A stretch of DNA of 44,023 nucleotides from an uncultured Pelagibacteraceae bacterium. Lineage in GTDB: Bacteria > Pseudomonadota > Alphaproteobacteria > Pelagibacterales > Pelagibacteraceae. The position numbers and the translations under genes are program-made. Each line of letters begins with the position of its first letter. Position 1 is the stretch's first letter. Positions 32,950 to 33,294 of the stretch are shown piece by piece. The DNA lies in assembly GCA_902566785.1 (NCBI GenBank), contig CACFKI010000006.1, positions 1-44,023 on the forward strand, given 5' to 3'. Under the pieces are notes generated by a model. It saw only the letters and a program-made list of their open reading frames with translations, was not told where the DNA came from and made no database searches.

Positions 32950-33009
32950 ATTTTAGTTAATAAATTAATAGACAACATATGTTTTAAATGTTAGTTAATC
33001 TTTTTTTTT

Positions 33010-33015
33010 AGGAGG
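33010..33015 (+). promoter_or_regulatory. Consensus Shine-Dalgarno of rpsU
   Basis: AGGAGG, a perfect match to the expected anti-Shine-Dalgarno, five bases before the ATT at 33021. It is preceded by a nine-base T run (33001-33009). The in-frame TAG at 33009-33011 overlaps it. Most other starts in the window have weak or no Shine-Dalgarno, so this strong site helps decide the unusual start. Confidence 0.85.
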
Positions 33016-33020
33016 TTGTT

Positions 33021-33215
33021 ATTAAAATAGAAGTAAAAGATAATAATGTTGAACAGGCATTAAGAGTTTTAAAAAGAAAACTTCAAAGAGATGGCTTTTT
33101 TAAAGTTATCAAATTGAAAAATACATACGAGAAACCTTCAGAGAAAAAAAAAAGAATTTTACAAGAAAATATAAAAAGAGTTAAAAAGTTAAATAAACTT
33201 AAGAACAGATTTTAA
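33021..33215 (+). CDS. rpsU: 30S ribosomal protein S21 (bS21), apparent AUU start
   Basis: Small basic 30S protein near the mRNA exit channel that supports initiation. The 64-residue reading frame gives KIEVKDNNVEQALRVLKRKL, then QRDGFFKVIKLKNTYEKPSE and a Lys/Arg-rich tail, a clear S21. The codon aligned with the family's first Met is ATT. Upstream in frame are only GTT, GTT and GAG before a TAG at 33009-33011, and no ATG, GTG or TTG occurs early in the frame, so ATT is the only sensible start. AGGAGG is five bases upstream. A 71-base gap separates it from the DUF1013 gene. The stop is two bases before tRNA-fMet. A sequencing error (ATG to ATT) is the main alternative. Confidence 0.93.
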   Translation: MKIEVKDNNVEQALRVLKRKLQRDGFFKVIKLKNTYEKPSEKKKRILQENIKRVKKLNKLKNRF

Positions 33216-33217
33216 AC

Positions 33218-33294
33218 CGCGGGGTGGAGCAGCCTGGTAGCTCGCAAGGCTCATAACCTTGAGGTCGGCGGTTCAAATCCGTCCCCCGCAACCA
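33218..33294 (+). tRNA. Initiator tRNA-fMet (anticodon CAU)
   Basis: 77-base cloverleaf with encoded CCA. Acceptor CGCGGGG faces CCCCGCA, leaving the C1-A72 mismatch diagnostic of bacterial initiators. The anticodon arm is CAAGG-CTCATAA-CCTTG. The third of the three usual stem G-C pairs is replaced: position 29-41 is A-U, with 30-40 and 31-39 remaining G-C. The T arm is CGGTTCAAATCCG. It starts two bases after the rpsU stop and is probably co-transcribed with it. Confidence 0.97.

Follow-up and report, generated by a model that had tools for sequence, protein, structure and literature searches.

The gene rpsU, encoding ribosomal protein bS21, occupies positions 33021-33215 on the forward strand of the DNA analysed here (the window: 44,023 nucleotides of contig CACFKI010000006.1, from the uncultured Pelagibacteraceae assembly GCA_902566785.1) and consists of 64 codons and a TAA. 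Its 64-residue product matches the Pfam family Ribosomal_S21 (PF01165, E 1.5e-15; 57.1 bits against a curated cut-off of 27) and is the sole S21 match in the assembly, which is 78% complete. Read directly from the sequence, the codon at the position of S21 Met1 is ATT (33021-33023), followed immediately by AAA ATA GAA GTA; before it stand an in-frame TAG (33009-33011) and then GAG GTT GTT (33012-33020), the frame being open from 33012 to the TAA at 33213-33215. No ATG, GTG or TTG candidate lies upstream of this ATT in the window, the TAG occupying that place. The Shine-Dalgarno (SD) sequence AGGAGG at 33010-33015, on the forward strand like all features described here, ends 5 nt before the ATT, and a T run (33001-33009) lies just 5' of it, codon -5 being TTT in 107 of the 111 Pelagibacter-type loci. 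The ATT at Met1, the closing TAG, the three intervening codons and the well-spaced AGGAGG had all been called in the original prediction, which was made from this sequence alone, and were confirmed when the site was read again.

Two further elements flank the gene. A promoter-like pair spans 32969-32997 and consists of TAGACA (32969-32974) and, with a spacing of 17 nt, TGT-TAGTTA (hexamer 32992-32997). On the other side a tRNA-Met (CAT) at 33218-33294 begins 2 nt after the rpsU stop; it has a C1:A72 mismatch, which we take to be the hallmark of initiator tRNA and thus to mark it as an initiator. This tRNA is the sole Rfam match near rpsU at the gathering threshold.

The unusual codon is conserved throughout the family of the window. 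We read 165 rpsU loci, made up of the window, the best 30 loci of the same genus (in which 82 of 101 genomes have an S21 match), the best 80 of 428 loci from named Pelagibacteraceae, and 54 further loci. The family and genus names used in this work (f1, g1-g10) are working labels; f1 is taken as Pelagibacteraceae from named Pelagibacteraceae and Pelagibacter records with 97-98% identical S21, and its class as Alphaproteobacteria from the NCBI taxonomy of HTCC1062. The start is ATT in 161 of these loci and ATC in 2, with all ten genera represented by ATT, and the same-genus and named Pelagibacteraceae loci have one or the other without exception (111/111; 109 ATT, 2 ATC). The remaining two (L338 and L350) appear to be extra copies of phage type from an assembly with 8% contamination (G109), which were not scored as AUU and stay in the denominator of 165. 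An alignment of SAR11 rpsU genes, the check proposed in the original prediction, therefore bears out the ATT, and the case named there against it, an ATG or GTG in relatives pointing to a sequence error, is excluded. Two other loci, L351 and L352, were kept in the count with coding frames that shift further down; in both, the rpsU frameshift falls at one and the same T run and gives Gly-Phe-Phe-stop, through either homopolymer error or real decay. These two frameshifts are what could be cited for faulty sequencing or assembly, or for gene decay, in the window as well, an explanation of practically nil probability that is refuted by independent genomes (ATT or ATC in 163 loci, with distinct 290-nt contexts in 162 of them, which excludes sequencing error) and by an S21 that is otherwise intact and has no second copy among the matches in its assembly.

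It could also be supposed that translation starts upstream, at an in-frame TTG or some other codon, and that the ATT is an internal isoleucine codon of an extended S21. An in-frame TTG four codons ahead is the sole upstream candidate in 100 of the 163 loci, a further 16 have some other candidate, and the site holds ATT in some loci and ATC in others, as an Ile codon would. That TTG, however, overlaps the SD and follows the T run, and 47 of the 163 loci, including the window, have no in-frame ATG, GTG or TTG back to the upstream stop, a start of the AUU/AUC/AUA class being conserved there with no canonical alternative. In 11 of the 163 just one or two codons separate the in-frame stop from the ATT, as in the TAG GTT ATT arrangement of genera g8 and g10. 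Across the 111 Pelagibacter-type loci, moreover, codons -1 (V/F/I/L) and -2 (V/D/E) vary in residue type whereas codons 0, 1, 2 and 4-8 do not, which argues that coding begins at the ATT. The upstream TTG is rejected on the strength of its absence from 47 loci and the variability at -1 and -2, and we consider any upstream start very improbable; judging by these comparisons, AUU is very likely the true start of SAR11 rpsU. The AUA at codon 3 was considered as a start in its own right and likewise rejected: one locus (L169) carries GTA there, and a count by eye puts it 11 nt away from GGAGG in Pelagibacter-type loci.

In the sister family the rpsU start lies one codon further upstream, behind an AGGAGG-type SD, and is ATA in 38 and ATC in one of 39 loci, 36 of which lack any canonical codon between this start and the upstream stop. 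The rest of the class was represented by 120 loci from 99 other families, hand-picked from the genomes in the match listing and tally; here we found GTG in 53, ATG in 25, TTG in 18 and AUA, AUC or AUU (AUH) in 15, with 5 ambiguous and 4 unclassified. Since 95 of the 120 (ambiguous and unclassified loci included) lack an ATG start, a weak rpsU start is common in the class, AUU being its uniform SAR11 form. The 15 AUH starts have an SD-like word 5-8 nt ahead and fall in 12 of the 99 families, and all three of these families that were sampled twice show AUH in both genomes. Ten of the 15 have an in-frame ATG, GTG or TTG further upstream, sometimes inside or adjoining the SD and in six loci no more than four codons from the AUH codon, while five have none; the AUH calls are for that reason weaker than in SAR11, and outside the order it is SD spacing and alignment that carry the reading. 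The aligned column holds ATG, TTG, GTG and AUH codons across families, as would be expected of a start-codon column. Several class loci have odd rpsU starts (L230, L244, L364, L384, L429 and L432), including ATA.GTG pairs and possible CTG starts, and L429 has a possible ATT start two codons upstream.

Control genes start in the ordinary way. The rpsU of other classes in the phylum begins with ATG in all 25 loci read (those belonging to other classes among the best-scoring 30 of 118 genomes with a match), and rpmE in the same loci as the rpsU genes does so in all 92 cases in which it was found (111 examined). The gene for L34, sought in 30 genomes, most of them with an AUH rpsU start, has a canonical start in 25 of 25 resolved loci (29 loci, four of them not resolved by the search pattern). 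Each of 57 viral S21 genes (L112-L168) has an ATG or TTG within three codons, and those of three cultured pelagiphages (L506-L508) start with ATG, TTG and ATG, so that both viral contigs and pelagiphages have ordinary S21 starts, unlike SAR11 rpsU.

The SD in front of the AUU is exceptionally strong. Its pairing with the 16S tail is scored at -12.2 kcal/mol in a same-genus genome and at -12.0 in the window (the latter with the tail of relatives, GGAUUACCUCCUU), whereas the best SDs of 391 ORFs with 100 or more codons, in 400 kb of that one same-genus genome, have a median of -2.2; the comparison ORFs were allowed any candidate start, and rpsU was scored over a stretch of equal length. In the 400 kb just 2 of 422 ORFs outscore it. 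An rpsU SD that stands out among mostly weak ones, as in autoregulation of the Bacteroidota type, is thus found in this stretch of one genome. The value of -12.2 belongs to a 19-nt scoring window, and other windows of the site give -13.6 and -14.9; the criterion used for Bacteroidota is a pairing below -13 kcal/mol, obtained by a scoring method that differs from ours. The 16S tail GGATTACCTCCTT was present in five of the six genomes in which a tail was found, and a search of 12 genomes gave no match in the other six, among them the incomplete assembly of the window. Those five SAR11 genomes (L530-L534) differ from the sixth (L529), which has GGATCACCTCCTT, by a change that adjoins the anti-SD. 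We also looked for AUH codons behind strong SDs elsewhere in the 400 kb: of 153 raw matches the 25 strongest were inspected, most of which lie deep in long frames, and by informal judgement rpsU is the sole convincing one.

The original prediction had suggested that a very strong SD compensates for the weak start codon. In SAR11 that description fits (-12.2 vs. -2.2 kcal/mol), but it does not extend to the class, where the SDs of AUH-start rpsU genes are no stronger than those of canonical ones (median -8.9 vs. -9.8; one-sided p=0.59), a result that speaks against a general rule of simple compensation. Set aside in this test were two ambiguous loci with ATA or ATC and a canonical codon two positions upstream (L383 and L436), three ambiguous ATA.GTG loci and the four unclassified ones.

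The surroundings of the gene are conserved as well. The 111 Pelagibacter-type loci share upstream blocks GACA and TG.TA, separated by 17 nt, which in other genera were noted by eye in printed examples; the pair resembles an alphaproteobacterial promoter and is presumably one. A generic sigma-70 scan of the window flagged no promoter at this pair, so the promoter, and hence the leader length, are predicted ones. If this promoter reading is right, the rpsU leader would be about 20-25 nt long, so that control would fall to the SD and the start codon. No structure beyond that of shuffled sequences was detected in four leader stretches from three loci (z of -0.12 and -0.16 in the window). Downstream, the tRNA-Met follows rpsU in 157 of the 165 family loci, with C1:A72 in all 157; it begins 3-7 nt after the rpsU stop in 117 loci and about 227-246 nt after it in 25. 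The eight loci counted as lacking it include one that ends inside such a tRNA (L174) and the two phage-like copies. No tRNA-Met was found downstream of rpsU, up to 600 nt from its start, in the 39 sister-family and 120 class loci, although in 48 of the latter the sequence ends less than 600 nt past the rpsU start, and in one less than 300 nt past it. We infer that in SAR11 rpsU and the initiator tRNA share one transcript.

The AUU start of infC, the gene for IF3, had served in the original prediction as the model for a plausible feedback loop on S21 synthesis, and the analogy is fair as regards mechanism, but infC itself starts with GTG in the genome of the window (L549) and in SAR11 genera g1-g4 and g9 (loci read, including L261 and L264-L267). 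This GTG directly follows an in-frame TAA, or in one locus comes two codons after it, and was seen in 22 of 30 loci of a first SAR11 set and in 4 of 5 of a new one. For g5 and g10, roughly the last 25 codons shown include no canonical start and infC probably begins with ATT; that of g8 has an ATG. In the sister family infC has ATA or ATC in the seven loci read (eight genomes, one without a match), and in the rest of the class ATA or ATC was noted by eye near the expected infC start in most of 30 loci. In the main SAR11 genera, then, the AUU-class start is missing from infC and present at rpsU. Since infC has GTG in g1-g4 and g9, a shared AUU regulon of rpsU and infC is not supported there, and the GTG found in most of the SAR11 loci read leaves them without a coupled AUU control of IF3.

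Several known systems resemble parts of this arrangement. The demonstrated precedent for SD-based autoregulation of S21 is rpsU of Flavobacterium johnsoniae (McNutt 2023, PMC9976891), where S21 is described as sitting beside the anti-SD and S21-free ribosomes are the better initiators at the very strong SD of rpsU, so restoring S21. As in SAR11, an exceptionally strong rpsU SD occurs there in a genome where most genes have none (PMC9976891). It differs in that the organism belongs to another phylum, that the anti-SD is sequestered there, by bS21/bS18/bS6 in the Bacteroidota type, through residues which the paper calls Bacteroidia-specific, and that AUU is absent from its main text (PMC9976891). 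Like SAR11 rpsU, infC belongs to the initiation machinery and has a start of the class discriminated by IF3: AUU-class starts are rejected by IF3, so that infC, with AUU, AUC or AUA, is self-limiting (PMC5472188); the gene concerned here is, in contrast, rpsU, with infC of g1-g4 and g9 starting with GTG. In Staphylococcus aureus a conserved AUU of cvfC1 and AUA of ccpN are reported behind extended SDs, with lowered yield (PMC13009471), a similar pairing of conserved non-canonical start and extended SD; these are not ribosomal-protein genes, and the lower yield was observed there with reporters whereas the SAR11 case is argued from sequence. Escherichia coli rpsT, for S20, is a ribosomal-protein gene with a weak start, a UUG thought to matter for an autoregulation that the review concerned describes as neither confirmed nor refuted (PMC10931766), though UUG counts among the three canonical starts. 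As its site is read here, SAR11 rpsU joins the AUU-class start and the very strong SD of these systems in one place. Among the matches listed for the open-licence PMC literature, no report of a non-AUG rpsU start was found in titles or the openings of abstracts, and the passages found for rpsU with an AUU start codon concern anti-SD mutants.

The AUU at rpsU probably acts as a throttle on S21 output, and we lean, on balance, towards a homeostatic one. The rpsU mRNA would have a short leader with no predicted structure, an extended SD and a start codon of the kind rejected by IF3, and the combination would make initiation slow and dependent on SD pairing, which would both throttle S21 output and make it respond to the state of the 30S subunit. 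Subunits without S21, or seeing little IF3, would initiate better on rpsU and S21 would be made; the new S21 would then, by feedback, shut off the excess. The initiator tRNA would read the AUU, and S21 would thus still begin with Met, presumably through fMet initiation.

The main rival is constitutive tuning, in which the AUU is a fixed attenuator without feedback that keeps S21 proportional to the other ribosomal proteins, rpsU lying on a strong transcript shared with the initiator tRNA. To this we assign a substantial but smaller probability. It is in keeping with the place of rpsU beside tRNA-fMet in 157 of 165 family loci, with the promoter-like elements conserved upstream, and with the S. 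aureus cvfC1 AUU and ccpN AUA, which lower yield (PMC13009471); a constant low setting and feedback would, besides, give an identical sequence signature. The sister family, however, has ATA or ATC and no tRNA was found there (n=39), so the link with the tRNA does not explain the weak start, and a weaker SD or a GTG or TTG would have been a simpler way to the same end, yet the very strong SD has been retained. A broader version of the homeostatic throttle, which we regard as speculative and rather unlikely as a whole, is that SAR11 and its sister family keep an S21 switch gated by AUU, AUA or AUC, in which 30S subunits poor in S21 (or in IF3) read the extended-SD rpsU and rebuild S21, that in the SAR11 family rpsU and the initiator tRNA form an operon setting initiation capacity, and that phage S21 genes with ordinary starts bypass the switch.

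SAR11 bacteria are described as among the most abundant cells on Earth (PMC7029224). A ribosomal-protein gene with an AUH start throughout the order lengthens the short list of conserved starts discriminated by IF3 and, if true, means that the N-termini of S21 may be misannotated in many genomes. If the self-control proposed here is true, such control of S21 extends from Bacteroidota to Alphaproteobacteria, and the AUU start of SAR11 would be a concrete host control that phage copies of S21, with their ordinary starts, would escape.
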